Assembly: GCA_016784965.1 (NCBI GenBank)
Contig: JADHTQ010000005.1
Span: forward strand, 1-64,000
Direction: 5' to 3'
From: Bacteriovoracaceae bacterium
Lineage (GTDB): Bacteria; Bdellovibrionota; Bacteriovoracia; Bacteriovoracales; Bacteriovoracaceae
DNA: 64,000 nt
The notes beneath the pieces are model-generated. The model did no database searches. It was not told the origin of the DNA and was given only the letters and a program-made list of their open reading frames with translations. Positions 13,556 through 60,665 of the stretch are shown piece by piece. The translations under genes were made by a program, and so were the position numbers. Within the stretch, counting starts at the first letter, position 1. Every line of letters starts with the position of its first letter.

Positions 13556-13589
13556 TTTATTAACCACTTGTTAGAAAAAAGGGAAGTTT

Positions 13590-13958
13590 ATGAAATTGAA
13601 AATCACATTTAAGCATCTAGAACACACCCCATCACTCGACGAAAAAATCAGAGAAAAAAGTAAGAAGTTAGAAAAATATCTAGATTCTTCTGCCGTCTTA
13701 AATTGGACGTGTTTTGTTAAGGATGGTCACCATTATGCGGAAGTAGATGTGCACAATTTACATTATGATTTTCATGCAACTGCCAATTCTGATAACCTAT
13801 ATAAAACCTTGGACCTTGTAATTGCTAAATTAACAAAACAGTTAAGTAAGAAAAAAGAAAAGGTGAAAGACAAGATACATAAAAAGAAAAATCCCTTAGT
13901 CATTATGGACCCAGAAGCTGCTTGGGCCGATCATGAAGATGATGGCATTTCAACTTAA
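13590..13958 (+). CDS. hpf: Ribosome hibernation promoting factor (HPF/RaiA family)
   Basis: Binds the 30S A/P-site region and silences ribosomes in stationary phase. The 122 residues correspond to the short form (N-terminal S30AE domain only); no long-form dimerisation domain is present. The fold is readable: KLKITFKHLEHTPSLDEKIREKSKKLEKYL (beta1-alpha1), then strands around CFVKDGHHYAEVDVHN, then alpha2 YKTLDLVIAKLTKQLSKKKEKVKDK with its lysine-rich end. The position directly after rpoN is the common proteobacterial arrangement. The GGGAAG site is upstream of the ATG. Confidence 0.92.
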   Translation: MKLKITFKHLEHTPSLDEKIREKSKKLEKYLDSSAVLNWTCFVKDGHHYAEVDVHNLHYDFHATANSDNLYKTLDLVIAKLTKQLSKKKEKVKDKIHKKKNPLVIMDPEAAWADHEDDGIST

Positions 13959-13990
13959 GAGTTTAAAGGTAGTTTTAAAGGAGAGCTATA

Positions 13991-14320
13991 ATGGCCTTGG
14001 GCCTTGAAGAAATTAAAAAAACAGAGTCAGAAGAAGTGAAAAAAAAGCACACTCCAATGCTCAAGTTTTCTAAGCTTGTGATTAAGCCAGATGAATCACT
14101 GCTTGATTTGATAATTTCATTCAGGGAAAAAAAAATGGCAAAGTCTTACAAACAAGCTACTTTGAGGCCCTGGCATAACTTTGAAAGAAAAACAAATGAC
14201 TTGCAAGTTGATAAACCTGCAAGTCCAAAGCAACAAACCAATATCAAGGCCCAGACTTTAGATTTAGTAAATCGAATCAAGTCTCGGGCCTTTGAGCTTT
14301 TTAATGGCATGTTAACTTAA
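13991..14320 (+). CDS. Hypothetical protein after hpf, 109 aa
   Basis: I do not recognise this protein. It is small, basic and soluble, and probably partly helical at both ends (ESLLDLIISFREKKMAKSY; TLDLVNRIKSRAFELFNGML), with a low-complexity Lys/Gln-rich centre. It lies 32 bp after hpf with a good ribosome site (AAAGGAGAG) and probably belongs to the lptCA-lptB-rpoN-hpf operon. In many proteobacteria ptsN and rapZ occupy this position, but no PTS IIA active-site His region is visible, so it is not PtsN. It is convergent with sbcC and ends 3 bp from it. Confidence 0.7.
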   Translation: MALGLEEIKKTESEEVKKKHTPMLKFSKLVIKPDESLLDLIISFREKKMAKSYKQATLRPWHNFERKTNDLQVDKPASPKQQTNIKAQTLDLVNRIKSRAFELFNGMLT

Positions 14321-38858: not shown

Positions 38859-40649
38859 ATGAGAAGTAGAGTGCTAATGACATTAGAAAAGACATCTGTT
38901 TACCGTGAGCGCCTATGCGCCGTTGCCTTAGAAGACATTGATATTTTAAATCGCAAGTGTCATTTTTTACCAGAATCGTCGATGCATGACCTGGAATCAG
39001 ATATCGACAAACTTTTAAGAGCAAATATTTCTCAAAAGTTTAAAATTTTTCTTACTAATCCCTCCAATCAATCTGAAACTTGGTTAGAAAAAACGTATCA
39101 AGTAGCGACAAAAGAGGAGAGGATTGAGACTCTTCCATACTCGGTGGAGTACGATTTACCCAATAATTGTGAATTTGATATAAATGCATTTTTTACCAGC
39201 AGTTTTTCTTCTTTAAGGGCTGAACATCAAAAAGGGGTAATTAAGAGTTTAAACCTATCACTTTTTGACTCTTCTCGTTTAAGTTCAGTATTTAATGGTC
39301 TCTCAATGACCGGTAAAGAATTAGTGGAACCGATGCCCGCTTCAGAACCAGAAATACCTGTCAATAAAGGTTTACTAAACTGTTTTTTGACCTCCAAGAG
39401 GTCATTTTTTATTTCGAGTTATGTCGATTCTAGAAAGCGAGTCCAAGAGTTTGTAGCGGTTGCCAATAAATTAAAAAGGACGCCCGTGCTATGGACTTTT
39501 GCTGATGGTCTGCAAGTATTAGATGATCCAGGCACTAAGGTTAAGTATGTGTACCACGATCAATATCTCACACATACGAGGATGCACGCAAGACAGTTGA
39601 TTAGCTATATAAAAAATGAGGGCAAAAGAGATACACTGTATCTACTAGAAGATTTTCACTACTACTTGGCAAAAGATCACTTTAAAGGCCCAGAGTTTGC
39701 CGAATTGATATCACAGATTAAATCACTTGCTCCCTCATTAAAAGAGCTGGGAAGTGTCGTAGTAATTTTGTCGCCTAAGACGGATCTGCCACAAGAGATT
39801 GCTCCCATTTTTGAAGTTATCAAAGGGAACAAGGCAGATGATAAGTTTGTATTTTTGGAAAAATACGGAACTGATTTTACTAAATTGATACAAGAAAACA
39901 AGATGAAGCCAGTTGTGGGCAGAGATGAAGAGATCACACAATGCTTGAAAATCCTATCTAAAATGGAAACAAACAATCCATTATTAATAGGAAATGCCGG
40001 AGTTGGAAAAACTGCCATTGTAGAAGGATTGGCAGCAAGGATTGCAGAGGGAAGGGTTCCGAAATATTTTATGGGAAAAAAAATTATTTCCCTCAATTTA
40101 AACGCACTTATTTCCGATACAAAATACCGTGGCGAATTTGAAAGTAGATTGGAAGAAATTCTAGAAGAGGTGCGTGGTAACGCAGATAAAATAATTATAT
40201 TTATAGATGAGATACATACTTTATTAGGTTTGGGGTCCACTGAGGGCTCAGCAGGCGCTTCCAATGTGTTAAAACCGGTTTTGGCCCGTGGAGAATTTCC
40301 ATGTATTGGTGCCACAACTGGCGCAGAGTACGACCGCTACATTAGGCAAGATAAGGCACTAAGCAGACGCTTCCAGGTAGTAGAAGTAGAGGAGCCAGAT
40401 GAGTGGGAAGCATATCAAATGCTTCAAGGTGTTACCGAGGTGTTTGAAAAGCACCATGGGGTACGGATTTCAGATGATGCTTTACGTGTTTGTGTAAAGT
40501 TGTCATCTCAGCTGATCGAAGATCAGTGCTTTCCTGGAAAGGCGATTAAGATGCTCGATGCGATATGTGCGTCGGCGGTCTTTGAAGATATAAGAGACAT
40601 CGATTCTGATTTTGTTACTTATGAATTTTATAAATTAAAGGAGAACTGA
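38859..40649 (+). CDS. AAA+ ATPase: Ycf46-like domain fused to Clp D1-type module
   Basis: A 596-residue protein, first gene of the actin/coiled-coil operon. Residues about 330-590 are a Clp/Hsp100 first-ring AAA+ module: KYGTDFTKLIQENKMKPVVGRDEEI, Walker A GNAGVGKTA (about 378), sensor/pore region KYRGEFESRLEEIL, Walker B IIIFIDEIHTLLG (about 447), Arg-finger KALSRRFQVVEV (about 500). Only one ring is present: no D2, no ClpA N-domain. Residues about 180-325 resemble the inactive N-terminal AAA domain of Ycf46 (VLWTFADGLQVLDDP, TLYLLEDFHYYL, VVVILSPKTDLP). The start could instead be the ATG at 38877. Confidence 0.8.
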   Translation: MRSRVLMTLEKTSVYRERLCAVALEDIDILNRKCHFLPESSMHDLESDIDKLLRANISQKFKIFLTNPSNQSETWLEKTYQVATKEERIETLPYSVEYDLPNNCEFDINAFFTSSFSSLRAEHQKGVIKSLNLSLFDSSRLSSVFNGLSMTGKELVEPMPASEPEIPVNKGLLNCFLTSKRSFFISSYVDSRKRVQEFVAVANKLKRTPVLWTFADGLQVLDDPGTKVKYVYHDQYLTHTRMHARQLISYIKNEGKRDTLYLLEDFHYYLAKDHFKGPEFAELISQIKSLAPSLKELGSVVVILSPKTDLPQEIAPIFEVIKGNKADDKFVFLEKYGTDFTKLIQENKMKPVVGRDEEITQCLKILSKMETNNPLLIGNAGVGKTAIVEGLAARIAEGRVPKYFMGKKIISLNLNALISDTKYRGEFESRLEEILEEVRGNADKIIIFIDEIHTLLGLGSTEGSAGASNVLKPVLARGEFPCIGATTGAEYDRYIRQDKALSRRFQVVEVEEPDEWEAYQMLQGVTEVFEKHHGVRISDDALRVCVKLSSQLIEDQCFPGKAIKMLDAICASAVFEDIRDIDSDFVTYEFYKLKEN

Positions 40650-40652
40650 GAA

Positions 40653-42149
40653 ATGGTAGATTTTACGGCAATTGGTGGTGAGTTAGGGACTTCGACATCC
40701 AAATTTTCTTGTGAGGACACAATTATAATCTTTTCCTCTGTAGTTGGTGATGCTCTTACAAAGAATATGGAGGAGAGCTGGAGACTAATGAATAGGTCTA
40801 GTGATAATAGGTGGATCAAAAACTTGGCAATTTTCGATGAGCAGAGAAACTCATGGAGATATGTTGGGGCAATGACAAGATGCTCTGAAAAGTGCAACTG
40901 GTTTACAAAAAGAGGACTGATATCCAATAATGATGATGCGTATGTATCCATTAAGGCCGGTTTGTTTTTGTTGAACCATGAAAGGCAAAATCAGGGTAAG
41001 CCTGAGGTTGGCAGAGTTGGATTTGGATTTGGTATTACCGTTCGACACGGAGAGAACGTAATTGAAAAGTTTTTTAATTACATGAAGGGCAGGCTGGATG
41101 AAGAAGGTGGCAAAAAGTTTATTAACATCAAGGCCAAAAACGTAGCTACCAATGAAGAGAAGGACTTAAAGATTGAATTAGATTTTGCAGTCATGCAGTA
41201 CCAGGCATATGGTGCCTATATGACGATTCTATTTTCTAAATACAATATGCAAGTGTACAATACATATGTAATCGACATCGGTCATGGTACATGGATCAAG
41301 CTGCCCATTGTAGACAATGAAGCAGATGTTAACTTATCAGATTCAAGGACTGAAGGTATTTTTACTATCACTCAAAATATTTCTAAGCTAATTTTTGAAT
41401 CAAGTGGACAGAAGTTTAAAATCCCTGAGCAAAAAATTATGGAGAAGTTGCCCTCTAAGGACTATAAAATTGAGGTCCCAGGGGTTGGCGTTTTTGACTT
41501 CCAGCGGCTTCTAGAGCACGAGTGTCGGCAGTTGGCAGTAGATATCGTGGAGCATGCGATAAACGACTTTGCGATACTATCTCAGAAGGGTCATACAATA
41601 GATTACTTTACCATTATAGGTGGTGGTGCTCATCTGCTATTTGATACTATTAAAGAAGAGATCGGCAACTACTTTCAATGGCCAAAAGAGATCATGGATA
41701 AAAAAGTTATTGCACCCGCATCTCTTGGAATCGACAGTCGTTATATCAACTGCGTGGGCTTTATGCTGCTTGCTAGAGACCAACACGCGATTGAGCATGA
41801 CGAGGATGTAGATCCCAATTTTGAATTAAACCATATTGTTTTTGATATTGACCTCGACGCCGATGGCAAGAAGATGGATAGCAGAATGGTTTCTAAAATG
41901 GAAGGCCATAAGCACGAGGAAGAAAAGAAAGCGGCTGATAAAAAAGCAGCTGAAGAGAAGAAAGCGGCTGACAAAAAAGCAGCTGAGAAGAAAAAAGCTG
42001 ATGATAAAAAAGCTGATGATAAAAAAGCTGATGATAAAAAAGCTGATGATAAAAAAGCTGATGATAAAAAAGCTGATGATAAAAAAGCTGATGATAAAAA
42101 AGCTGACAAGAAAGCTGACGACAAGAAAAAGAAGAGTGACGCCAAGTAA
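40653..42149 (+). CDS. ParM-like actin-fold ATPase 1 with KADDK repeat tail
   Basis: A 498-residue protein with the actin/Hsp70 nucleotide-binding pattern. Phosphate-1 is AIGGELGTSTSKF (6-18). Phosphate-2 is YVIDIGHGTWIKLP (about 205-218). The adenosine loop is FTIIGGGAHLLF (about 319-330). This arrangement (D-I-G-x-G-T) is like ParM/StbA and archaeal actins rather than MreB. The body ends at about 415; the rest is a Lys/Ala/Asp-rich tail with seven ADDKK units. It probably forms filaments; the tail could bind membrane, DNA or partner proteins. ATG 3 bp after the AAA+ stop, with AAAGGAGAA. Confidence 0.8.
   Translation: MVDFTAIGGELGTSTSKFSCEDTIIIFSSVVGDALTKNMEESWRLMNRSSDNRWIKNLAIFDEQRNSWRYVGAMTRCSEKCNWFTKRGLISNNDDAYVSIKAGLFLLNHERQNQGKPEVGRVGFGFGITVRHGENVIEKFFNYMKGRLDEEGGKKFINIKAKNVATNEEKDLKIELDFAVMQYQAYGAYMTILFSKYNMQVYNTYVIDIGHGTWIKLPIVDNEADVNLSDSRTEGIFTITQNISKLIFESSGQKFKIPEQKIMEKLPSKDYKIEVPGVGVFDFQRLLEHECRQLAVDIVEHAINDFAILSQKGHTIDYFTIIGGGAHLLFDTIKEEIGNYFQWPKEIMDKKVIAPASLGIDSRYINCVGFMLLARDQHAIEHDEDVDPNFELNHIVFDIDLDADGKKMDSRMVSKMEGHKHEEEKKAADKKAAEEKKAADKKAAEKKKADDKKADDKKADDKKADDKKADDKKADDKKADDKKADKKADDKKKKSDAK
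41998..42102 (+). repeat. Seven perfect 15-bp tandem repeats in the actin-1 tail
   Basis: Unit GCTGATGATAAAAAA occurs seven times, encoding ADDKK, and is followed by degraded copies to about 42120. Repeats of this perfection are prone to slippage but stay in frame (15 bp). Upstream (41928-41997) a related AADKKAAEEKK pattern precedes them. Confidence 0.95.
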
Positions 42150-42160
42150 CAGGAGGATAT

Positions 42161-42694
42161 ATGAATACATCATATTTGGTTATGGATAACGAGCTAAAAA
42201 CACTTGTTCGAGATTTCTCTAAGGGCTACCCCTATGGGGCCAAGGGTGGTCTCAAAATAGTGCTCAAGTATTACATGAAGTTTCATAAAAAGTGCCGTCG
42301 AAAGGGTGAAGATCCTATTGTTGCATTTGAAAAATTGGTTTCCCAATATGTTTCGGGGACACCTTATGGTGAGTCTGGTGATTTGAATTCGATTTTAAAT
42401 GAGAAAATTCGCAGTCTGGACACCATCCTTGAAGCTGATAGAAAAGTTCAGGTAAAAGGTATAGATGATGGATCGATACTAGATGCCATCAGAGAGGTTA
42501 AGAGTATTGTTCAAGGCATGGGCTCAGGCGGAGGCGGCGGTTATGGCAACGCTATGCCTAGAAAACTCAAGGATTTTAATCCCTCAAATCCAGCAGAACT
42601 TTTAAGGTTGGATAGAAATGCTAGTGTACCCCGAGAGCGTCAGAACTACAGGGATTTGAGAAAAAAGAAGGGGCAGAAAAAGGTTGAGTTTTAA
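42161..42694 (+). CDS. Hypothetical partner protein of the actin cluster, 177 aa
   Basis: I do not recognise this protein. A basic helical N-terminal domain (about 1-105: LKTLVRDFSKGYPYGAKGG..., later VSQYVSGTPYGESGD) contains a repeated 'Y-PYG..G' element. A glycine-rich linker follows (GMGSGGGGGYG), then a very basic tail (ERQNYRDLRKKKGQKK). By position between two ParM-like genes it could be an adaptor comparable to ParR, but no ribbon-helix-helix is visible; that is a guess. AGGAGGAT is a strong ribosome site, 11 bp after the previous stop. The stop overlaps the next ATG (TAATG). Confidence 0.72.
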   Translation: MNTSYLVMDNELKTLVRDFSKGYPYGAKGGLKIVLKYYMKFHKKCRRKGEDPIVAFEKLVSQYVSGTPYGESGDLNSILNEKIRSLDTILEADRKVQVKGIDDGSILDAIREVKSIVQGMGSGGGGGYGNAMPRKLKDFNPSNPAELLRLDRNASVPRERQNYRDLRKKKGQKKVEF

Positions 42695-43815
42695 TGTTTA
42701 CACCAACAAAAAAAATATTTGTTGATCCAGGTAACTTCTATACAAAAATTATTGTAATGAAGGCCGATGGTAGTGGCGGGTTCGAATTTTACGGAAAAAC
42801 CTTTTTCCCTTCAACCGTCACTCCTGCCGCCAAAGAGTCAGGTATTTCGATGCTCTATGGTAATCAGGAGGAAGGCCTGTTTGCAGTAGGACGAGATGCG
42901 CTCGTTTTAGGTGGTTTCACCTATGAGGAGGCAAAACTGCATCCTTGGGGCTGGCGTAGGGATAACGGCAAAAGTTTAGTTACAAAAATTTTGTATGATT
43001 ATGTGGATGAAAAAAACGAACAAATGGAAGTGACGTTTTTGTATGACAGCGCTGAAAAGTTGGCCCTTTTAAAAGAAGTGGTAAAAGACTACAGCAAAGA
43101 TGATGAATTGGTGCCAGTTGAAGCTTTTAGACATCTTGATCAGCACCAACATCATAAAAATACAGAAGTAAAATTTAACTATGTTCCAGTCAGTGATGTG
43201 TTACTAAATTATTTGACTTCATTTGGAGAAGAATTTCGCAAGAGCATAGTAGTAGACATTGCGCACAACGACGTTAAGCTCTTCATTATTGATTCTGAAA
43301 CAGGTGTGAGCCTGTTTAAGACCATAGAAATAGGGGTTAGTACCTACTATGAGAAAATAATGAAACTTTTAACTGAACAAGCGGAAAGTCGAGTGAATTA
43401 TGGTTGGCTCATAAAACAGATAGAGTGCGGCATCACCGAAATTGAGGTTGTATCAGAGATGGATACTTCCGACGGGGATGGACTCGCTATTAGTTTGTTG
43501 AGTGAGAGATTACTGGGAAAACCGAGTGTTCTATTGAATCATTTGAAACAGCGTTTTGACATAAACGACGTTATTGAAAATGTCAGATGGGATCTCAATA
43601 AAGATATTAAGAATATGGTTTATGATACACTGGTTACGTATTGTAGCAATAACGCCATAAACATTGATATCTTGGCCATAATTGGCGGTGGTGCAAATTA
43701 TAATGGAGAAATCCTCGCTCAGAACTTAGAGGAGGAGGAAATTTCGCCAGATATTATTGTGGTGAACGAAATTCCATTATATACTTTAGTAAAGAATGTA
43801 ACGGAGATGTGTTAA
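42694..43815 (+). CDS. Actin-fold ATPase-like protein 2 (divergent ParM-like)
   Basis: A 373-residue protein with the actin/Hsp70 plan. Phosphate-1 is KKIFVDPGNFYTKIIVM (5-21). The phosphate-2 position is SIVVDIAHNDVKLFII (about 183-198), where the usual DxGxxT is changed to DIAHND. The adenosine loop is AIIGGGANYNGEI (about 329-341). Loss of the glycine/threonine in phosphate-2 suggests altered or lost ATP hydrolysis, so it may be a regulatory or capping relative of its neighbours. The start overlaps the previous stop by one base, which indicates translational coupling. Confidence 0.75.
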   Translation: MFTPTKKIFVDPGNFYTKIIVMKADGSGGFEFYGKTFFPSTVTPAAKESGISMLYGNQEEGLFAVGRDALVLGGFTYEEAKLHPWGWRRDNGKSLVTKILYDYVDEKNEQMEVTFLYDSAEKLALLKEVVKDYSKDDELVPVEAFRHLDQHQHHKNTEVKFNYVPVSDVLLNYLTSFGEEFRKSIVVDIAHNDVKLFIIDSETGVSLFKTIEIGVSTYYEKIMKLLTEQAESRVNYGWLIKQIECGITEIEVVSEMDTSDGDGLAISLLSERLLGKPSVLLNHLKQRFDINDVIENVRWDLNKDIKNMVYDTLVTYCSNNAINIDILAIIGGGANYNGEILAQNLEEEEISPDIIVVNEIPLYTLVKNVTEMC

Positions 43816-43846
43816 AAAGAACTTAAATAGTTCCAAGGAGTAAATA

Positions 43847-44269
43847 ATGACGGAAACTAGCGCGATTACATCTAACAGGGTTGGCGGTCATGTTGGGCAT
43901 GGCTTTGATGCAAGTATGAATTTTTTAGGACAGGTGTCTGCTCATGTTGTCAATTCTGGAAAATTTATTATTGATATCGGTAGGCAGTGGGCACAAGCGT
44001 TTTTTGACGCGTGCCGCATGAAACCTAAAGAGGGGACTACCATTAAATATTTAGTAGGAGTGAAAGCTTCTGAATTTGACATGGAGTACCAGAAAGATTT
44101 CTACACCAATGTGGGTAAAGAACTAGTTGATCTTTCCAAAATGGACGAGCTTAGTGATGATCTATTAATTATTGATACATCAAAATTTAAGCATACGTTT
44201 AACGAGCTAGGTGACCAAAAGGACGTTGAGTCACCTGACATAGGGGTGCAAGGAGAGCAAAATGACTGA
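43847..44269 (+). CDS. Hypothetical protein of the actin cluster, 140 aa
   Basis: I do not recognise this protein. It is soluble, with a hydrophobic/amphipathic N-terminal half (about 15-55: VGGHVGHGFDASMNFLGQVSAHV; WAQAFFDAC) and an acidic C-terminal half ending in a disordered tail. No signal peptide or catalytic motif is visible. AAGGAG is 7 bases before the ATG. Its 3' end overlaps the next gene by 8 bp (ATGACTGA), so the two proteins are probably made in matched amounts and may bind one another. Confidence 0.7.
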   Translation: MTETSAITSNRVGGHVGHGFDASMNFLGQVSAHVVNSGKFIIDIGRQWAQAFFDACRMKPKEGTTIKYLVGVKASEFDMEYQKDFYTNVGKELVDLSKMDELSDDLLIIDTSKFKHTFNELGDQKDVESPDIGVQGEQND

Positions 44270-45485
44270 TGAATACGACAACGACGACAACATTCTAGAC
44301 AGACTCATTAAGGAGGTCGAGGTAGTTATCGATCCAGTTAATGAGGACAGGATTCTAGAACGTATTTCTGACTTGAAAAAGTCTGAAAAGAAAGTGGATT
44401 CTTCTACCCACTTCAAGAAAGGGAAATCGGTAGACTCGGATGACATGCCTGGAATTGATGTGTCGAGGGCCAAGACGGTTGCCAATCCGACTGATTCAGA
44501 CTCTATGTTGGGACTTGATATTGGTACCAGTAGAATTATCGGATTAAGAATCGATGGTGTCAGTGAGCCCAGTTCATCAAAGGATCTAAACGCCTATTTT
44601 AGAATACCATATTCAGATTTGGCCAAACAGATGTTGATCAAAAATAATATGAAGTATTTTAAAAGGGCCGAGAGCTTGTTTATATACGGCTTTGATGCAG
44701 AGTCTTTTGCCAATATGTTCAATGCAGAAATTTTGCGACCTATGGAGACTGGCTTATTAAAGTTGGGTGATACCATGGCCGTTCCAGCTGAAAAAAAGCT
44801 CATTGAATCAGTTATTGGAGCACCTGAAACCATTGGGGAGAGTTGCTGCTTTTCGATTCCGTCACCGGTAGAATCTAATGAAAGTAGTATTGTTTTCCAC
44901 GAACAGGTGTTGAAAAAATATCTTACAGGCTTAGGCTATAGAGCGCAGAGTATTTTTGAAGGCACATGTGTTGTTTTATCTGAGTTGGCTGAAAACAACT
45001 ATACAGGCATCGGCATCAGTATGGGCGCCGGGATGTGTAATGTAAGCTTCTCATTTTTGTCAGTACCAGTCATGTCATTTGGAGTTACAAAAGGCGGAGA
45101 CTACATTGATAGAAGTGTTGCTCAGATTGTTAAAGAACCTATGAACAAAGTTAGGATCATTAAAGAGCAATCACTAAACTTAGGTAAAGTTCCAACCAAC
45201 AGCCTAGAAAATGCACTACATGTTTACCACGAGGACTTGATTGGTACCTTGCTAAATGTCTTAAAGCAAAACCTACAAAATGCGAGTAATTTTCCTCAAG
45301 TACATGAAGAGATTCCTATTGTGATCTCTGGAGGAACATCTGCTCCCAAGGGCTTTAAGGAAAAATTTGAAAAGGTGCTAAAAACACTACATCTGCCTGT
45401 AAATATCTCTCATGTTAAAGTTGCAAGTGCTCCGCACCTTGCGGTAGCAAAAGGTGCTCTTATTAATGCAACAACAATGAAATAG
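44262..45485 (+). CDS. Actin/Hsp70-fold ATPase-like protein 3 with acidic N-terminal extension
   Basis: A 407-residue protein. Residues 1-80 are an acidic, partly helical extension. The actin-type core starts at MLGLDIGTSRIIGL (about 82-95). Phosphate-2 appears as GIGISMGAGMCNVSFSF (about 250-266; the leading Asp is replaced by Ser, the Thr by Cys). The adenosine loop is IPIVISGGTSAPKGF (about 351-365). The C-terminal ASAPHLAVAKGALI resembles the MreB/PilM/Hsp70-type end. It is therefore nearer to MreB/Hsp70-like proteins than its two neighbours are, and its catalytic pocket is degenerate. Confidence 0.75.
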   Translation: MTDEYDNDDNILDRLIKEVEVVIDPVNEDRILERISDLKKSEKKVDSSTHFKKGKSVDSDDMPGIDVSRAKTVANPTDSDSMLGLDIGTSRIIGLRIDGVSEPSSSKDLNAYFRIPYSDLAKQMLIKNNMKYFKRAESLFIYGFDAESFANMFNAEILRPMETGLLKLGDTMAVPAEKKLIESVIGAPETIGESCCFSIPSPVESNESSIVFHEQVLKKYLTGLGYRAQSIFEGTCVVLSELAENNYTGIGISMGAGMCNVSFSFLSVPVMSFGVTKGGDYIDRSVAQIVKEPMNKVRIIKEQSLNLGKVPTNSLENALHVYHEDLIGTLLNVLKQNLQNASNFPQVHEEIPIVISGGTSAPKGFKEKFEKVLKTLHLPVNISHVKVASAPHLAVAKGALINATTMK

Positions 45486-45495
45486 GGATGTAAAA

Positions 45496-46674
45496 ATGAG
45501 TTTTGGCACTGAAAGAAGAGAAGCTCCTCGTTTTGAAACTTCGGACTTACTATTTGAGTACCAAGATTACAAACTGGATGTACTAAATATTTCTAAAAAT
45601 GGCGTTTTAATTTACTCCCCTGATGGCTTACCTGAGGATTTGCTACTGTTGGCCAAAAGCCAACAGTTCGTTTTTTGGCTACACGATAAAGTTAAGGGTG
45701 AGTCAATGGAGTGCGAAGGCCGAGTCATCAGATGCATTTTAAAAGAAGACAACCATAGTTTCGACAAAGCCGCCATTGCCTTTAATCCAACTCAAAGTGT
45801 ACAGATGCAAAAAGAGTCATATGGCCCACACGTTATTGCTGTTGGTGGGTCAAAGGGCGGAGTTGGTAAGACTGTAACGGCAGTCAATTTATCATTAATG
45901 TTGGCCCTACTTGGAAAAAAGGTTACGCTATTTGATGCCGATTTTGGAGATGCTGATTGTCACACGATGTTGGGAGTGAGAAAACTAAGTAGTGATGTTG
46001 GAGACTATCTACATAATGAGGTTCGACTGGCAGATGCAAGGATCGACACTTCTTATAAAAATCTAAAATTAATTAGCGGGGGGGTAAATAAAATCGAAGG
46101 CATTGCCAAGCAGGTTCCACACCTGTGGAAGGATATGAAGACCCTTCCGTGCGACTATGTAGTAGTAGATTTAGATGCTGGTATTGGTGACCATACTATT
46201 GAGTTTTACAATAGAGCGGCTACCAAGATCATTGTGTTAACTCCCCAGTTTACATCGTTACAAAATGCCTACTCATTTATAAAGGCGTCGACCTATTCTG
46301 CACTTTATCAAAATTTCAAAATCCGAGAAAAACTAGGGGATATGGGAGATGATTTCACAAAATTGTTTCCTGCCATGAAATTGTTATCTAAGGATGATGA
46401 AATAAGCAAGGAGTTTCATTCAGTCTTAGAACAGCAGGGTTTTAAAATTATTGGAAACATGGTCAATTCGGAAAAAGAGCTTGGGTTTGTAAAAATCCTA
46501 ACCAAATTAGTAGGGGAGCATCTCGGGATTGAAAGTTCAATTTTAGATGTACTTAGACGCTGCAATGAAGTACATGATTCAATTAATAAAATTACACCAT
46601 TTATTGCATTGTCACCGGAATCAGAGAATGCAAGACGTATGAAAGAGATTGTGAATAGATTAATAAGACAGTGA
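45496..46674 (+). CDS. PilZ-MinD/ParA fusion ATPase
   Basis: A 392-residue protein. Residues 1-105 are a PilZ domain with both c-di-GMP motifs: RxxxR (R8-E-A-P-R12) and NxSxxG (N31-I-S-K-N-G36). The MinD/FlhG-type ATPase begins at about 115: deviant Walker A SKGGVGKTVTAVN, LFDADFGDADCH (switch I), VVVDLDAGIGD (switch II/Walker B) and the LVLTPQ-like VLTPQFTS. MinD/FlhG ATPases position cell structures. Here cyclic di-GMP would be expected to switch the ATPase. No amphipathic C-terminal MinD helix is obvious. RBS AGGGATG; 10 bp after the previous gene. Confidence 0.88.
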   Translation: MSFGTERREAPRFETSDLLFEYQDYKLDVLNISKNGVLIYSPDGLPEDLLLLAKSQQFVFWLHDKVKGESMECEGRVIRCILKEDNHSFDKAAIAFNPTQSVQMQKESYGPHVIAVGGSKGGVGKTVTAVNLSLMLALLGKKVTLFDADFGDADCHTMLGVRKLSSDVGDYLHNEVRLADARIDTSYKNLKLISGGVNKIEGIAKQVPHLWKDMKTLPCDYVVVDLDAGIGDHTIEFYNRAATKIIVLTPQFTSLQNAYSFIKASTYSALYQNFKIREKLGDMGDDFTKLFPAMKLLSKDDEISKEFHSVLEQQGFKIIGNMVNSEKELGFVKILTKLVGEHLGIESSILDVLRRCNEVHDSINKITPFIALSPESENARRMKEIVNRLIRQ

Positions 46675-46720
46675 AAGTTAACATAGGTTAAGTTTATATC
46701 TTGATAAAAGGGGTACATTG

Positions 46721-49700
46721 ATGTCAGAGAATTTTGAAAAGATATTGGCGATAGATGAAAATAGATCCGCACTAGATGAAATGGTAAGACATTTATCAAC
46801 TGATTTCCAAATTAGAACGACTGTTTCAGCACAAGATGCAAGAAACATTTTTAAGGTGTTTAAGCCCAATGTTGTCATTATGGATGTTGGTTTAGCCGAC
46901 GGTTCCTTTTTCGATCTTCTTTCAGAGTTTAAAGAAGGTGATCAGGATGTGGTCAGAATTGCTACATCGGACGATTACAATAATTTAAAAAGTATTATGG
47001 AGGCCATCAATTTGGCCAATGTCCATAAGTTTTATAAAAAGCCCATTGATTATTCTGATTTAAAAAGTATCATCAGGACCAATGCCCAAGGCTTACAAGC
47101 AGCTCAAGATGGGAAAATTCAAGTTAGTGATGAAGCTTCTTATGCAAAACTAAAATCTAGCCTTAACTTGATCGAAGAGGCTGAGATGTTGAGAAAGCAG
47201 GTTGATTCTCAAAAGTCTACTTCTTATAAGTTACAACAAGCACAAATTCAGCGCTCCAAGCAAATAGAGGAACTTGAAGATGTGGTTGAAAATTTATGCC
47301 TTGAGACCGAAGCACTTGAGAGATTAAATGAGCAGAGTTTGGCGCAAACAGAAAGAGAGCGAAATGCCCTAAGAGTAGAGGTGGACCGTCTTAGCGATGA
47401 AAATGAAGATTTAAAAAGAAAGCAGCAGAAGCTAGAAGTCAAAGCGCATGCAGAGCAAGTTGCCACTTTTGAAATAGATGATACTTTTGACCAATATAAA
47501 CGTGAAAAAAGAAATGGCTTAGATTCTGTTCTCTATGTCGGTAAAGATTGGGAAGCTGGTAGGAAATTTTCAGATGTGTTTGAGACTGAATTTAACGTAC
47601 TGGCCGTAGACAATGAAGAAAAGGCCATAGGTCTTTTAGAAAAAGATGATCAGATAAGGTTAATGATCACTGAACAACAGATGGGAGTGTCACTGGCCCA
47701 ACTTGTAAATGAGATGTATCCAGATTTTCCAGTCTTTTTACTCACTAATGGAGTACAGATAGAGGTTTCAGAAGGTGCTGTAAACAGCGTAGATATAACT
47801 AAATACGTTGGAGTGCCATTTGATCCAAGGGTCTTGCGCCGAGAAATTAAGGCGGCCATAAAGAAATATGATACTTTAGCAATCAAACGGATGATTATCG
47901 ATAAGAGAAAGAAATTTATTGTAACACAGTTTAAGGAGCAAGCAGAAGTTGTAGAGGAATTGCAACGCACGGTTGACCACTATCCAGATAAAGTATCTGA
48001 TCTTAGAAAATCTATAAAATATCTAAAAAGTGATCAAGATGATCGAGAAGAGCTACACAAAGAGAGGCTGGGGATAGTTGAAAGTAAGCGAGATTCTTTG
48101 AAAGAAGAGTTGAAAAAACTGACCAGTGATTATAAACGGTTGTTAGCTGAAAAAGAATTGAGCGATAAAACGGCACATGACTATAAAGTCGCTGTAGATT
48201 CACAAAAAGAAGCCACCTTGCGAGTTACAGCTGGAATGGCAAGAATCGGGCGAGAAAAAATTGATGGCAAGGATTCAGTCCTATGTGTTGGCAGTGATGA
48301 CATGCAACCCATAATTGATCACATGGAAAAAACTTATAATGTCTACACAGCTCCAAGTGCAGATAAAGCACTTACGGCCCTAAAAGATCACAAAGATATA
48401 TGTTTAATTTTGACAAATCAAAAACTGGCGAAAGTAAACGGTTTAGAATTAGCTGCAAGGGTAAAAGAGATTTCCCCAGCGATTCCCGTTTGCTTACTGG
48501 CTGATTCCAAAGATTATGAAGTAGCAAAAGATGCATTAAACTCTTCCAATATCTTTAAATATTTTGAAAAACCCTATCAGAGGACTCTGGTTTCAGAAGT
48601 TGTCATGGATGGTATCAACTACTATGACCGCGAAGCTGTCAGGGTAGCTATTTATGATGAGCAACAAAAGTTTATTGTTGATAGCATCCAAACTAAGGAT
48701 GTGGAGCTACAAAACTTGAAGTTTGCTGTGGATAAAGAGCGCCAAGAAATGCAAAAGGCCATGGATGCCAAGCGTGAAACGCTAATTAAAGAAACGACAG
48801 ATAAGTGTGATAAAATGCTGGCAGAGACAAGGACGGAAGTGGACAAAAACCGCTCAGAAATTCGGGGAGAGCACCAAACTATGGTCCAAAGTTTAGATCA
48901 AAGACAGAAGGAGCAAGAAGCGATGATAGCAAAATTGGATAAAAGGTTTGCAGAGCAAAAAGCGACCCAGGAAAAACTAAATAGGATGCAAAAAGAGCAA
49001 GAGCTGATGGCCGACGACCTGAAAAGAAGAAGCCTGAGCGTTGAAGAGCAAGAGGATATAGTAAGAGATAAACTAGACAAGCTACGTGCAGAAACTAGCA
49101 AAGAAATGGAGGAGATTGCGCAAGAAAGAGATAGGATGAGAGAAGATGCGAGAAAAGAAAAAGATCAACTGCGCAGGGATACCCAACAAAGCATTCAAGA
49201 ACTAACCGTTAAAAGAGATAAATTAGATAAAGAGGTTAAGCGAGACCAGGAAGAGATAATTGAAAGAACTCAGAGACAGCGAAGAGAATCTGATCGCGAG
49301 CGTGATGACATGGTCCATGAGTTAGAGAAGCTTAGAAAAGATGTTCAGCGTGAAAGAGATGGACTGCTTGAAGAACAAGAACAAATGCGCAGAATGGTCG
49401 CTAAGGAAAAAGAAGCAGCACTCGCTAAAATCGAAGATGAACATAGAGCACTTATCGCTGAACAAAAAAGAGAGATGGACGAACTTAGCGAGCGAGTGAA
49501 TAAAAAGCGTGAATTGGTATCAGCAGAGTCTAAAGAAGAGATAGATTCCATTAAGAAAAAGCATAGAATTGCTCACGACACTTTGATGGCCGAACTCGAA
49601 GAAGAAGGTAAGTTAGAGAGAGATATACTTGTTAAGAGGTTAGAAAAAGAGCGCGAATTACTACTTGCCAAGTCAACAGAGGAGCGCAATGAGATTACTC

Positions 49701-51133
49701 GAAAAATGGAAAAAGAGCGCAACAACCTAATGGCAGAGCTAAAAGAAGAGCGGGATCTGGCCAAAATTGAAAAAGAAGAAATTCTGAAAAAACTTGATAA
49801 AGAGCGCGAAGTGTTGATGAATGAGATCAAAGATGCCCGTGAAGAGCAAGTACTACTTGAGCGAGAGCAACTAGAGGTAGAAAATAGAAATAAGGCCGCA
49901 CTTGCTAAGCTTACAAAAGAGCATGAATTAATGCTCGCCAAATCTCAAGCCGAGCAAGATAATTTGGGCAAAAAGAACCAAGAAATGATTCAAGAGGCAA
50001 TTGCTGAGCGCGATGCGATTATGCAAAAATCACAAGAGGATAAGAAGGCACTTGAAGAGACCTTGGCCAATGAGCGCAAAGAGTTTGAAGCCAAAATGGA
50101 ACAAGAGCGCAAAGACTTTCTTAAAGAAACTGAGAGACTTCACGCTGAAGCTGAAGAAAAGAAAAAGAAAGCCAAAGAGGCCACTGAAGCTGCTACCAAA
50201 AAGCTGGAAGAGGAGCGCGAGGCAATTTTGGCCCAGGCCTTTGATGAGCAGGAAAAACTGAAAAAAGAAAAAGAAGAGCTGGTCAAGAAAATGGATAAAG
50301 AGCGCGAAGAGTTATTGGCCGAATCAGAAAAAGAAAGAGAGAGGCTCAGACACGAAAAAGAAGAAACAATTAGAAAGATGGATGAAGAGCATCAGTTGCT
50401 ATTAGAAGACGCTGAAGCAGAAAGAGAGGCGGCAATAAGAGAGAGGCAGGAGATCTCTGCTAAGATCAATGAAGAGCGCGACAGATTGCGCGAAGAAGTA
50501 CAAGAGATGGAGGCCAGTGTCGCAACCGCCAAAGAGGCCATAAGTCAAAAAATTTCAACTGAACGCGAGACCATGCTGAGTCAGGCAGAAGCTGAGCGGC
50601 AAAGAACAGTTGATCAAATTAGTGAAAAACGCGAGATGCTACTTGCCGGAGCAAAAGAGAAAGAGAGATTAATTACTGACAAGATAAACAAAATGCAGGA
50701 TGTCTTTCAAAATCAGCGCGAATTGATGATTTCTGAAGTAGAGGAGCAAAGGCAGACGAAGATTCAAGAATTAGAGCAAGTACAAAGAGAGTTTAAGCAA
50801 GAGATGATCCGCAGAAAGTCAGAGTTGGAGCGAACCTTCGAGGAACGTGTTCAAAAGGCCGTGCAAAGTGAACGCTCACGCATGCTGTTAGATGTCCAAA
50901 AAGAGCGCCGAAGCAAAATTGGTGAGATGGAAAGAATTCAGCATCAATTCAAAAATGAAATGGTCAAAAGAAAAAAAGAGCTAGAAACTAGTGAAATGAT
51001 GCTGAAGCGGCAAAAAAAGAGTATTCCAACTGGCCATCAAGAAGAGTTAGATCGACTAAAGAAAAAGTGTGAGCTTTTAGAAGACTCCAGGTCTGCCCTA
51101 GTTGCGGAATTGGCGGAGCTTCAAGGAGATTAG
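46721..51133 (+). CDS. Giant coiled-coil protein with three receiver-like domains
   Basis: 1470 residues from the ATG at 46721, which follows AAAAGGGG. REC1 (1-125) keeps the functional set: D12/E13, phosphoacceptor D55 (VVIMDVG), T82, K107. REC2 (about 265-390) has Glu in place of the phospho-Asp (MITEQQMG) and lacks the Lys. REC3 (about 517-640) has Asn at that position (LILTNQK) but keeps the Lys (FEKPY). REC2 and REC3 are therefore likely pseudo-receivers. Short coils separate the three. Residues about 650-1470 are an uninterrupted Glu/Lys/Arg-rich coiled coil with KEREELLAES-type repeats. The protein is probably a long scaffold controlled by one phosphorylatable domain. Confidence 0.88.
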   Translation: MSENFEKILAIDENRSALDEMVRHLSTDFQIRTTVSAQDARNIFKVFKPNVVIMDVGLADGSFFDLLSEFKEGDQDVVRIATSDDYNNLKSIMEAINLANVHKFYKKPIDYSDLKSIIRTNAQGLQAAQDGKIQVSDEASYAKLKSSLNLIEEAEMLRKQVDSQKSTSYKLQQAQIQRSKQIEELEDVVENLCLETEALERLNEQSLAQTERERNALRVEVDRLSDENEDLKRKQQKLEVKAHAEQVATFEIDDTFDQYKREKRNGLDSVLYVGKDWEAGRKFSDVFETEFNVLAVDNEEKAIGLLEKDDQIRLMITEQQMGVSLAQLVNEMYPDFPVFLLTNGVQIEVSEGAVNSVDITKYVGVPFDPRVLRREIKAAIKKYDTLAIKRMIIDKRKKFIVTQFKEQAEVVEELQRTVDHYPDKVSDLRKSIKYLKSDQDDREELHKERLGIVESKRDSLKEELKKLTSDYKRLLAEKELSDKTAHDYKVAVDSQKEATLRVTAGMARIGREKIDGKDSVLCVGSDDMQPIIDHMEKTYNVYTAPSADKALTALKDHKDICLILTNQKLAKVNGLELAARVKEISPAIPVCLLADSKDYEVAKDALNSSNIFKYFEKPYQRTLVSEVVMDGINYYDREAVRVAIYDEQQKFIVDSIQTKDVELQNLKFAVDKERQEMQKAMDAKRETLIKETTDKCDKMLAETRTEVDKNRSEIRGEHQTMVQSLDQRQKEQEAMIAKLDKRFAEQKATQEKLNRMQKEQELMADDLKRRSLSVEEQEDIVRDKLDKLRAETSKEMEEIAQERDRMREDARKEKDQLRRDTQQSIQELTVKRDKLDKEVKRDQEEIIERTQRQRRESDRERDDMVHELEKLRKDVQRERDGLLEEQEQMRRMVAKEKEAALAKIEDEHRALIAEQKREMDELSERVNKKRELVSAESKEEIDSIKKKHRIAHDTLMAELEEEGKLERDILVKRLEKERELLLAKSTEERNEITRKMEKERNNLMAELKEERDLAKIEKEEILKKLDKEREVLMNEIKDAREEQVLLEREQLEVENRNKAALAKLTKEHELMLAKSQAEQDNLGKKNQEMIQEAIAERDAIMQKSQEDKKALEETLANERKEFEAKMEQERKDFLKETERLHAEAEEKKKKAKEATEAATKKLEEEREAILAQAFDEQEKLKKEKEELVKKMDKEREELLAESEKERERLRHEKEETIRKMDEEHQLLLEDAEAEREAAIRERQEISAKINEERDRLREEVQEMEASVATAKEAISQKISTERETMLSQAEAERQRTVDQISEKREMLLAGAKEKERLITDKINKMQDVFQNQRELMISEVEEQRQTKIQELEQVQREFKQEMIRRKSELERTFEERVQKAVQSERSRMLLDVQKERRSKIGEMERIQHQFKNEMVKRKKELETSEMMLKRQKKSIPTGHQEELDRLKKKCELLEDSRSALVAELAELQGD

Positions 51134-57231: not shown

Positions 57232-58527
57232 ATGAATGAACAAGGGCATAATGGATTTATTGCCAGGAGTGGTGTTTTCTTGGCCAAAAAAGTTGGGAAA
57301 ACTGTCGGGGGAATCGGGATGTTAACCTACGGTACACTTCGAGGCACAAAGAGGCTTCTAACGCTTGACTTTAAAAGGAAAAAGAGACCTAAGCAAGCAC
57401 ACAGTCCTGTGGGTGTCGGAAAGAAGGAAGACAAAAACCTAGCTGAAATGCGGGCTCGCGCAACAGAGTTGCAAAACAAAATTTCAGAACTCTACTTAGT
57501 AATGGGCAAGTTGGGAGCTGAAAGTAGTGGAGAGGAAAGTGCCGAAGGTGGTGCTGGAGTGTTCCAAAATCAGAAAGTCAAAGGTGTCATCAACGAGATT
57601 GAAAAGCACGAAGAAGAGCTTCGGGCCTTAAGAAAGTATCTGGATGCATCAAAAGAAGCGGCGAAAAACAACAAGCCAATACCCGCTTATGAAGTGCCTC
57701 AGCGTACTGATCTTCCAGGACGCTCTGGAAAGCGATTAGATTCCCTAATTGCTAATTGTCGGAACAAAGTGACGTTTCCTCTAAAATCGGAAGCCATCTT
57801 CTTTGATAAGATTCTGACAGATCTGCAAGATGATGAAATAGACATTAAGAGGCTTGCAGTAAGTGAGCTCGGCAAGATTGACAGACAGGAAGTCATTCCT
57901 GTGTTGTACGAACTGCTAGAGATCAAAAACGACCTACTACAGGCTGAGGTCGTAAGTTCACTGGTTCAGCTTGATGATAGCAACATGTTTGCTACTTGCA
58001 AGCGGTACATTACTCACGGCTATGCAGGTGTCAGAAACGCTGCGGTTAGAGGGCTGTACAAGTCTGGTGAAAAGGCAGCAGTTCCAATGCTACTCAAGTC
58101 TTTGCGTGATGAAAATGTAGAGGTTAGAAACGCATCGGCCATGTTCTTAGGATGGCTCGGTGATAAATCAGCTGTACCATCACTCCTACAATCCGTTGTG
58201 GACATTGATGAGAGAGTTAAAAAGAGCGCCTTAGCATCTCTTGTGAGTTTGAAAGAGAAAACATCGGTTGTACCCATGATGAGAATCCTGGATACAGATG
58301 ACAAGAAATTGCAAACTCAAGTCATTGATGCCATTGAGATGATAATTGGTAAGAAAGTAACTTTTTCTACCGACTTAAAAGGCGAGCAAAGGACGGCTGA
58401 GGTAACGAAGGTCAAGGAATGGTACCTGCGAGAGTTGCATGGTTTAAATGATTCAACTTCTGCCAAGCCAAAAGAAAAGGCAATGAAAGTAAAACTCAAT
58501 AAAAAGGTGAAAGAAGAGAATGACTGA
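57232..58527 (+). CDS. HEAT-repeat protein with membrane-like N-terminal segment
   Basis: A 431-residue scaffold protein. Residues 10-40 are a glycine-rich amphipathic segment (RSGVFLAKKVGKTVGGIGM). A coiled region (about 60-140) follows. Residues about 180-400 hold PBS-lyase-type HEAT repeats, each about 31 residues: DIKRLAVSELGKIDRQEVIPVLYEL, GVRNAAVRGLYKSGEKAAVPMLL, EVRNASAMFLGWLGDKSAVPSLLQ, RVKKSALASLVSLKEKTSVVPMM. The last about 70 residues contain a conserved-looking KEWYLREL and a Lys-rich end. Likely a protein-binding platform. The stop overlaps the next ATG by 8 bp. Confidence 0.85.
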   Translation: MNEQGHNGFIARSGVFLAKKVGKTVGGIGMLTYGTLRGTKRLLTLDFKRKKRPKQAHSPVGVGKKEDKNLAEMRARATELQNKISELYLVMGKLGAESSGEESAEGGAGVFQNQKVKGVINEIEKHEEELRALRKYLDASKEAAKNNKPIPAYEVPQRTDLPGRSGKRLDSLIANCRNKVTFPLKSEAIFFDKILTDLQDDEIDIKRLAVSELGKIDRQEVIPVLYELLEIKNDLLQAEVVSSLVQLDDSNMFATCKRYITHGYAGVRNAAVRGLYKSGEKAAVPMLLKSLRDENVEVRNASAMFLGWLGDKSAVPSLLQSVVDIDERVKKSALASLVSLKEKTSVVPMMRILDTDDKKLQTQVIDAIEMIIGKKVTFSTDLKGEQRTAEVTKVKEWYLRELHGLNDSTSAKPKEKAMKVKLNKKVKEEND

Positions 58528-59188
58528 TCAAAATTATACCCTCGAGAAGAATTCTAAAGTAGGCTTTGAAATTGTTGAAAAACCGGAGCCAGTGGTTCAG
58601 CAGGACATAGCAAAGGAGTTTCTCACCAGAGAAGATGAACTCTACGTTGCTAAACAGAAACTGCTGCACAACTTAAAGGTAATGATTACCATCAATCAGC
58701 AGCTGGCAGATGATATTGACAAGGTCTCAACAGACAACAGTAAATATCTGGATTCAATCAGGCAGTTGAAAACACAGTACGATACGCTCATTAGTGAGCA
58801 TAAAACTGTGGTGGCACAAAACAAAGAGGTCTTGGCCAAAATAACATCTGCTCGGATTGGTTGCAATCGCTTAATTGGTGATATGGGATTTTTAAAAGAT
58901 GAAAATGCCAAACTCACTGATTGGGTGAATGGTAAGTCGAAGATTTTCGGCGAGCTGCTTGATAAGATGGAAACTGTCAAGCGCAACTATGACTTTGTTG
59001 TTGGTGAAGCAAACTTTTCTGAAGATATTCTTTCTTCTGTTGAATCTTTGGTTAACAAAGCATTTGAGCAAAAGAAAGATATCACGAAAAAAATTAATGT
59101 TACCAAAGACAAAATGGATGTTCTTTTTAATGAGTTGAGTACATCGTTAAAAGACAAAAAGATGGCGTTTTATCAAAAACAATCTTAA
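58520..59188 (+). CDS. Coiled-coil protein of the second cluster, 222 aa
   Basis: I do not recognise the family. An acidic unstructured N-terminus (about 1-40) leads into continuous coiled coil (about 45-215; LHNLKVMITINQQLADDIDKV, YLDSIRQLKTQYDTLI, KKDITKKINVTKDKMDVLFNEL). No membrane segment is visible. It starts inside the HEAT gene's last codons (ATGACTGA), with AAAGAAGAG upstream, so translation is coupled to it. Confidence 0.75.
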   Translation: MTDQNYTLEKNSKVGFEIVEKPEPVVQQDIAKEFLTREDELYVAKQKLLHNLKVMITINQQLADDIDKVSTDNSKYLDSIRQLKTQYDTLISEHKTVVAQNKEVLAKITSARIGCNRLIGDMGFLKDENAKLTDWVNGKSKIFGELLDKMETVKRNYDFVVGEANFSEDILSSVESLVNKAFEQKKDITKKINVTKDKMDVLFNELSTSLKDKKMAFYQKQS

Positions 59189-59213
59189 GTGTTAACTAAA
59201 AAGGGTGTTTAGT

Positions 59214-59888
59214 ATGGAAAATGAAACAAGCGTGGCGGAAGTAGGCAGTGTTAAGATTAATTTGCCTCATCAAATTGAAGATGTAGTAATTAAAGAGCAG
59301 CTCAGAAAAATTTCAGATTTAAGAATTGATGAGATTGTTAACATCTCGGCTGATCAGTTTGAAAAAAATATTAAGGATATGTTATCTTCAATTAAAGAAT
59401 TAGATTATAGCCTCAAGTGCTCTTTGGATCTAAGTCAAACTCTAAAAAAGGAAGCACAGGAGAATGACGAAAAAATCAAGGGGCTAATGGAGGAGAACCA
59501 GAAGTTAAATAAACGTATTCTCGATTTAGAAAATAGCATTCCTCAGGTTAAGGATATTGAGATGAAGATGGATTTAACTCATCAGGAGCTCAACAAGTAT
59601 AAGGGAATGTACGCTGAGGAACTTGCTAAAGTTGAGAGACGTCAAGAAGAAAACACGGCCCTAAAGAGCAGTTACAACAGTATCAAGGAAGAGTGTGAGG
59701 ATCTCAAGAGAGAGAACTCTATGTTTAATACAGAGAGAGTTCGAGGTCTAAGCGAAAAAGATGAAATTATAAGTGACCTAGAAAGAAGACTCAAAACTGC
59801 AAGCATTGAAACAGTTGAAATCTCAAAAGAGCTAGAGCAGACAAAAGAGGAACTTGTGAGCATTTATAAAACCTTAAATGTTAGATAG
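59214..59888 (+). CDS. Coiled-coil protein of the second cluster, 224 aa
   Basis: Unrecognised. Acidic, with long coiled coil from about residue 60 to the end (KKEAQENDEKIKGLMEENQKLNKRIL; ELNKYKGMYAEELAKVERRQ; EIISDLERRLKTA). The N-terminal part (KINLPHQIEDVVIKEQLRKI) may be a small interaction domain. The ATG at 59214 follows AAAAAGGGTGTTTAGT; a GTG at 59205 adds three residues and is not preferred. It lies 25 bp after the previous gene. Confidence 0.75.
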   Translation: MENETSVAEVGSVKINLPHQIEDVVIKEQLRKISDLRIDEIVNISADQFEKNIKDMLSSIKELDYSLKCSLDLSQTLKKEAQENDEKIKGLMEENQKLNKRILDLENSIPQVKDIEMKMDLTHQELNKYKGMYAEELAKVERRQEENTALKSSYNSIKEECEDLKRENSMFNTERVRGLSEKDEIISDLERRLKTASIETVEISKELEQTKEELVSIYKTLNVR

Positions 59889-59900
59889 GGAAATAAACAG

Positions 59901-60665
59901 ATGAAAAATAAAGTATCACGTTTAAAGAATAAACTAGATGAAAATTGGGAAGCGATTAAAGATCGCTTCCCGATTGTTATTGATGCAGAACTTGTCGATA
60001 AGGATTCTGTTCAACAGGATGTCTTAAAGTACTTTGATGGATTAAAAAGTGCCGACGAGATAAGAGAATATCTGTCCTTAGACAAAAGCGATGCACATCT
60101 AATCTTTGTTGACCTGTTAAGATCTGGTGCGGTGCGCTTTTTAGAAGATATTGAGCGCCCAAAGTATATTAAAAATCGCAACATCGAACTCAAAAACAAC
60201 TTAGAGTTCTTAAAATCAGAAAAAACGCGCTTGATCGGTGAAGAGTTGTACCTTAAAGAGCAAATTGTTGATAAGGAAAGGGAATTAGAAGCTTATAAGG
60301 CCAAAGTTCCCGAGAATGAAAAGGTCTTAGGTGATCTCAACCAGAAGCTTGAGAAGCTTAAAATTGAGCCTGACAAGCTATGGAAAGAAAATGCGGATCT
60401 GTTTGCTTTAAAAAATGAAATGTTTGGAAAAGAAAAAAAGATTCGAACTGTTCTTCGTGAGCTAGAGACTGGATTGCCAAGATTAATTAAAAGAAAAGTA
60501 CGATTAGATAACTTGATTAAACAGTCAGAAAGTGGTATCGATGTAAAGAATGTTGAACGAGATAATAGCTTGAGCGAACTCTTTACTTACCGTGATACCA
60601 TCGATGAGATTAAAAGTGATCTTTTTGCGACTAAAGCACGGCTTAGAGAGTTAGCTGACGAGTAA
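59901..60665 (+). CDS. Winged-helix plus coiled-coil protein of the second cluster, 254 aa
   Basis: Unrecognised as a whole. Residues about 30-90 (VQQDVLKYFDGLKSADEIREYLSLDKSDAHLIFVDLLRSGAVRFL) match the winged-helix pattern found at the C-terminus of DUF4388 proteins, where it serves as a DNA- or protein-binding module. The rest is coiled coil (KNNLEFLKSEKTRLIGEEL onward). It shares position, size and coiled-coil character with the two preceding genes. RBS AGGGAAAT; 12 bp after the previous stop. Confidence 0.75.
   Translation: MKNKVSRLKNKLDENWEAIKDRFPIVIDAELVDKDSVQQDVLKYFDGLKSADEIREYLSLDKSDAHLIFVDLLRSGAVRFLEDIERPKYIKNRNIELKNNLEFLKSEKTRLIGEELYLKEQIVDKERELEAYKAKVPENEKVLGDLNQKLEKLKIEPDKLWKENADLFALKNEMFGKEKKIRTVLRELETGLPRLIKRKVRLDNLIKQSESGIDVKNVERDNSLSELFTYRDTIDEIKSDLFATKARLRELADE

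Follow-up and report, generated by a model that had tools for sequence, protein, structure and literature searches.

A 64,000-nucleotide stretch of DNA from a Bacteriovoracaceae bacterium (the window; GenBank assembly GCA_016784965.1, contig JADHTQ010000005.1, positions 1 to 64,000) contains an operon encoding three different actin-fold proteins, which we call ActA, ActB and ActC. We propose, with a probability of roughly two in three, that this operon serves as the cytoskeletal part of a magnetosome gene cluster without MamK, in which ActA, together with ActB, replaces MamK beside Mad28, the family that ActC fits. A first-pass annotation made from the letters of the window had already picked out the three actin genes; the magnetosome gene cluster setting was not visible from the window.

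Three actin-fold proteins in one operon

The three actin open reading frames (ORFs) all lie on the plus strand and encode proteins of 498 (ActA), 373 (ActB) and 407 (ActC) amino acids (aa). Two small ORFs, sA (177 aa) and sB (140 aa), are interleaved between them:

40653..42149, plus strand: ActA, actin-fold protein, the most conserved of the three (Foldseek ParM/Ta0583; motifs)
41919..42106, plus strand: 15-base tandem repeat that encodes the Lys/Asp/Ala-rich tail at the C-terminus of ActA (tandem-repeat scan)
42161..42694, plus strand: sA, small protein conserved in Bdellovibrionota-type loci; no Pfam match
42694..43815, plus strand: ActB, fast-evolving actin-fold protein, after ActA and one gene (Foldseek ParM/Ta0583)
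43847..44269, plus strand: sB, small protein before ActC; same place in 7 genomes, with 17-34% identity of relatives to the window copy; no Pfam match
44262..45485, plus strand: ActC, Mad28-type actin (Pfam Volactin PF25216; motifs) with an amphipathic N-terminal extension

The full order in the window is AAA+ ATPase, ActA, sA, ActB, sB, ActC, PilZ-MinD and a long receiver-coiled-coil gene. Successive junctions, starting at the AAA+ gene and ending at the MinD gene, measure 3, 11, -1 (TAATG), 31, -8 and 10 bases, bearing out the earlier description of one operon with overlapping or near-adjacent starts; the positions it gave for the actin genes (40653, 42694 and 44262) were also correct.

Matches of ActA and ActB to the Pfam family MreB-like_C were weak (E = 5e-5 and 0.0085), and sequence searches of the PDB returned no meaningful match. 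AlphaFold models of both proteins retrieved ParM and Ta0583 in the PDB by Foldseek (E ~1e-10 to 1e-11, probability 1.00). On these models, which are of moderate confidence, ActA and ActB have both the fold and the phosphate-1, phosphate-2 and adenosine motifs of the actin superfamily. Profile comparison identified the two as remote homologues (HHalign 95.7%, E = 9e-9) and gave no significant alignment of ActC with either, which makes ActC a separate family. The three proteins are thus not recent copies of each other, in agreement with the first-pass annotation.

Averaged over six shared genomes, identity was 70% for ActA, 53% for ActC and 37% for ActB. The ActA motifs GELGTS, DIGHGT and GGGAH are largely invariant across 14 sequences. 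ActA had been credited with a full ATPase pattern; this stands for its intact phosphate-2 motif DIGHGT and fails for phosphate-1, which has Glu in place of Asp in Bdellovibrionota and is not fully canonical. The strong conservation of ActA, together with the intact DIGHGT and GGGA motifs, suggests the behaviour of a polymer-forming actin. ActB keeps the phosphate-2 Asp in 12/12 sequences and Asp-x-Gly in 9/12 homologues. The Gly is lost in the window copy, a change that, judged from these sequences, appears to be lineage-specific and local. The first-pass view that two of the three actins are catalytically altered consequently holds for ActC, nearly family-wide, and not for ActB as a family.

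Two further observations concern ActA. Its tail, of the ADDKK type, is missing in most relatives, and a similar charged tail was seen only in locus L017. The same locus (L017:17883-19937, genome G179) encodes a paralogue of ActA joined to a receiver domain and a coiled coil, with 34% identity to ActA over the actin domain.

ActC matched Pfam Volactin at 250 bits (cut-off 35; E = 5.8e-74). Its phosphate-2 motif reads SMGAG or SMGGG in nine of ten sequences and CIGAG in the other, so that the change from Asp to Ser is nearly family-wide. The phosphate-1 motif DIGTS and the adenosine motif GGT are kept, and Glu233-Gly234, placed by eye in connecting region 1 (xExx without the Pro of MamK), is invariant. 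The N-terminus is amphipathic, with a hydrophobic moment of 0.79 at residues 10-20 in the window copy and weaker values in some relatives. Mad28 differs from MamK in the same way, with Ser for Asp in phosphate-2 and, in connecting region 1, a Glu that no Pro follows; despite the altered pocket it still forms polymers in vitro (PMC10653835); an amphipathic N-terminus has also been described for it (PMC12713370). ActC therefore appears to fit the known Mad28 family, which provides deep-branching magnetotactic bacteria with a second magnetosome actin, an assignment set by the published signature and not by alignment to a reference Mad28. The SMGAG pocket reported for the third actin is indeed present, but it marks a described family whose members can polymerise. 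With Mad28 of BW-1 and RS-1, ActC shares the SxGxG phosphate-2 motif, the connecting-region Glu without Pro, the amphipathic N-terminus and the occurrence in genomes with magnetosome genes; unlike them, it stands in one operon with two further actin-fold families, and MamK was not detected.

Mad28-type bacterial actins fall within the Pfam Volactin family, which is named for the Haloferax cell-shape actin, and a shared origin is conceivable. For Volactin we know of no MinD, ActA or ActB context. Although ActC lies far over the Pfam cut-off, Volactin itself is an archaeal cell-shape actin (PMC10869688).

Gene order, magnetosome genes and the absence of MamK

The order AAA+, ActA, sA, ActB, sB, ActC, followed by PilZ and/or MinD, is also found in three other genera of the same family (genomes G025, G019 and G179), so that the genome search once suggested as a check finds the gene set conserved together. 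Genomes from other families of this phylum (G165, G218 and G141, the last sharing contigs with the Kiruna genome of locus L026) have both an sB-ActC-PilZ-MinD block and a block of AAA+, receiver-coiled coil, ActA, sA and ActB, apart from each other. Other classes and phyla have the gene families as well. When 84,980 genomes were scanned with 8-residue patterns, which can miss distant ActA relatives, 14 ActA loci were returned, from Bdellovibrionota/Oligoflexia metagenome-assembled genomes (MAGs) and from records bearing the labels Deltaproteobacteria, Myxococcales and Planctomycetota. The ActA tree separates the sequences of Planctomycetota and Myxococcota from those of Bdellovibrionota. One ActA genome, nXXbin1, is a magnetotactic genome of the UBA10199 phylum in PMC7602337; it encodes, within a single cluster, two different Mad28-type actins (L022:10628-11686 and 13021-14262) beside ActA and ActB, four actin-fold genes in total.

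In every locus whose contig extends far enough, ActB comes after ActA with a single gene in between, the exception being the solitary receiver-fused paralogue of G179. In loci of the Bdellovibrionota type the intervening gene (X) is that of sA; in Myxococcota it encodes an MshEN-like protein and in Planctomycetota a 445-aa unassigned protein. Profile comparison detected no homology between sA and the MshEN-like protein. The latter (L031:4923-6599, L032:11201-13384), with the PilZ domain of the Bdellovibrionota loci, hints at control by cyclic di-GMP (c-di-GMP).

Magnetochrome (PF18509) is a domain tied to magnetosomes. It was found in 14 of 15 ActA genomes and in none of 14 controls. Among 291 Bdellovibrionota genomes, ActA is present in exactly seven, and a strong Mad28-type ActC in the same seven; magnetochrome at E <= 1e-3 occurs in ten, comprising these seven, with the strongest matches, and three others with weaker ones. 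The co-occurrence of ActA and magnetochrome in this set gives a Fisher p of ~3e-14 for the strongest matches and ~4e-12 when all ten are counted.

The actin genes are also physically linked to magnetosome genes. A mamAB operon shares their contig in G019, G025, G218 and G165, relatives in which ActC, as expected of Mad28, lies within a magnetosome gene cluster. The genes mamA/mamQ adjoin the operon in G025 and G019, and in G218 ActC lies ~4 kb from the mamAB operon, with ActA-ActB ~20 kb further. NCBIfam models matched MamA, MamB/M, MamQ and a MamE-type protein in G218, and MamA, B, M, P, Q and E in the Myxococcota genome G301, at scores below the strict NCBI cut-offs, as expected in divergent lineages. 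The window's own draft genome (G000, with the window on contig C102) carries the mamAB core genes (A, B/M, E, Q, I) on G000:C81, as recognised by Pfam and in-house profiles and, for MamI, by NCBIfam; that contig encodes MCR, PDZ, trypsin, two cation-efflux and FeoB proteins. Genes for FeoB are often found close to ActA loci.

Neither ActA nor ActB matched the NCBIfam MamK model (cut-off 400 bits), ActC reached 29.7 bits, and nothing in the Bdellovibrionota genomes tested exceeded the cut-off. A 2026 survey found mad28, but never mamK, in every magnetosome cluster of Bdellovibrionota; it proposes Mad28 as the MamK substitute and names no further actin (PMC13200544). Two Myxococcota MAGs with mamAB genes, G300 and G301, carry ActA-X-ActB, and neither Mad28 nor MamK was detected in them. 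ActA and ActB are the only magnetosome-linked actins seen there, with MAG incompleteness as a caveat. Among the Myxococcota genomes sampled, G541 has MamK and lacks ActA.

Neighbouring genes

The genes flanking the actins, in and beyond the operon, are the following:

38859..40649, plus strand: ClpB/ClpV-D1-like AAA+ ATPase (ClpB E = 6.6e-95, residues 321-572 only; N-terminal half unassigned by profile)
45496..46674, plus strand: PilZ-MinD/ParA-type ATPase (Pfam/profile matches; PilZ and MinD are two separate genes in several relatives)
46718..51133, plus strand: long coiled-coil protein with receiver domains, 1471 aa (domain search)
57232..58527, plus strand: HEAT-repeat protein, Mad23-like (HEAT domain, as described for Mad23 in PMC12748827)
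58520..59188, plus strand: coiled-coil protein, Mad24-26-like by synteny (gene order in related loci)
59205..59888, plus strand: coiled-coil protein, Mad24-26-like by synteny (gene order in related loci)
59901..60665, plus strand: conserved 254-aa coiled-coil protein, Mad24-26-like by synteny (gene order in related loci)

The HEAT gene, the two coiled-coil genes and the 254-aa coiled-coil gene (57232-60665) recur together in related loci, often directly before the AAA+ gene. This is the published order mad23-24-25-26(-27) (PMC9145555), in which Mad23 is a HEAT protein (PMC12748827). Such nearby HEAT and coiled-coil partners recall the chain-organisation network of Mad20/23/25/26 and Mad28 in RS-1 (PMC12748827); RS-1, however, uses MamK, where ActA and ActB are found here. 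The AAA+ gene adjoins ActA in Bdellovibrionota loci and in other loci comes directly after the Mad23-26-like block. By gene position only, and from published notes of an 'ATPase domain' (PMC9840458, PMC9145555), the AAA+ ATPase is a candidate Mad27 and the PilZ-MinD protein a candidate Mad29.

In five loci a receiver-coiled-coil gene lies between the AAA+ gene and ActA, and the fused paralogue of G179 ties ActA to the receiver-coiled-coil gene of the operon. Inspection by eye suggests that the 1471-aa protein keeps the phospho-acceptor Asp in its first receiver only, the later receivers looking degenerate. Just beyond the window, the minus strand carries a 4552-aa ORF (G000:C102:65807-79465, L038:5807-19465).

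Alternative explanations and a proposed division of labour

Several points weigh against the proposal that ActA, with ActB, replaces MamK. Model confidence is moderate for both proteins (pLDDT 67; pTM 0.67 and 0.58). In the window's draft genome the mamAB-type genes lie on a different contig (C81) from the operon, so that linkage there is only putative. The lack of MamK or Mad28 in MAGs can reflect assembly loss. Two Planctomycetota genomes (G299 and G668) carry ActA, and G299 has ActA-X-ActB without a magnetochrome match; the ActA family may therefore work outside magnetosomes and need not be specific to them, and magnetosomes may have recruited an older pair of cytoskeletal proteins. Matches to the MamK model in G299 were set aside as magnetosome evidence, since the same proteins match BeeR strongly and may be of BeeR type.

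Mad28 alone could also fill the role of MamK. ActC would then act as the substitute, and ActA and ActB would distribute or pass on magnetosomes, or regulate Mad28 without polymerising. We consider this somewhat unlikely, although Mad28 is the published candidate (PMC13200544) and polymerises in vitro (PMC10653835), ActB evolves fast, and the separation of sB-ActC-PilZ-MinD from ActA-sA-ActB in three Bdellovibrionota genomes implies that the modules can be decoupled. Against it, ActA is more conserved than ActC, with DIGHGT intact, and ActA-X-ActB is present, with Mad28 undetected, in the Myxococcota MAGs that carry magnetosome genes. It is less probable still that actins, MinD, PilZ and the receiver-coiled-coil protein constitute a general cytoskeleton for cell polarity or motility whose genes only happen to be close to those for magnetosomes. 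The receiver-coiled-coil architecture presumably resembles that of AglZ/FrzS of Myxococcus, and Planctomycetota also have ActA-X-ActB, magnetochrome being undetected in the one genome tested; yet ActA was found in none of the 284 Bdellovibrionota genomes without Mad28-type ActC and strong magnetochrome, and mamA/mamQ lie next to the operon in two genomes, Mad23-26-like genes in many.

We give low weight, as a very improbable explanation, to a ParM-like plasmid- or island-segregation system carried on a magnetosome island. ParM is among the best fold matches of ActA and ActB, and a MinD/ParA-type ATPase is present. Unlike ParMRC, however, the operon has three actins and a magnetosome setting, Pfam recognised no ParR-like DNA-binding gene in it, and its linkage to Mad23-26-like and mam-type genes is conserved across genera. 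The tandem-repeat scan found its sole array inside the coding tail of ActA, parC-type centromere repeats not having been specifically sought. ParMRC, with its one filament gene, was also a poor yardstick for the first-pass annotation, because a two-actin system, MamK with Mad28, is already known; its statement that no system of this composition has been described agrees with the open-access literature that we searched.

For the replacement of MamK by ActA with ActB, we infer polymerisation, copolymerisation and a division of labour among the actins. ActA, a new actin family, would most likely be the main nucleotide-driven filament in the place of MamK. ActB would accompany it as an invariable partner, whether copolymer subunit, cap or adaptor, and sA is encoded between the two; together, ActA and ActB probably form or regulate the missing magnetosome filament. 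They would resemble MamK in their role as an actin filament ordering magnetosomes, and differ in being unmatched by its NCBIfam model. ActC, as Mad28, would place magnetosome chains; in other bacteria Mad28 puts them along the cell's inner curvature. Remodelling of the filaments would fall to the AAA+ ATPase and their positioning to MinD with PilZ, possibly governed by c-di-GMP, and the Mad23-26-like block and the receiver-coiled-coil protein would link them to magnetosomes and signals.

The family of ActC is known; ActA and ActB are candidate new magnetosome actins, not described as actins in the open-access literature searched. An earlier description may exist, for example in a figure of PMC13200544, among unnamed magnetosome genes restricted to Bdellovibrionota. 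More tentatively, at slightly under even odds, ActA and ActB each represent a new actin family and form, probably as an obligate pair, a magnetosome filament independent of MamK. In some Myxococcota they would be the sole magnetosome-associated actins, so that actins of different origin would have served more than once as the basis of magnetosome chains.

Magnetosome chains are commonly explained by mamK, a gene in wide use as a marker. What replaces it was left open by the 2026 survey of magnetotactic Bdellovibrionota, and the operon offers two well-conserved candidates besides Mad28, together with possible partners. The operon also suggests that bacterial organelle cytoskeletons can use several divergent actins together.

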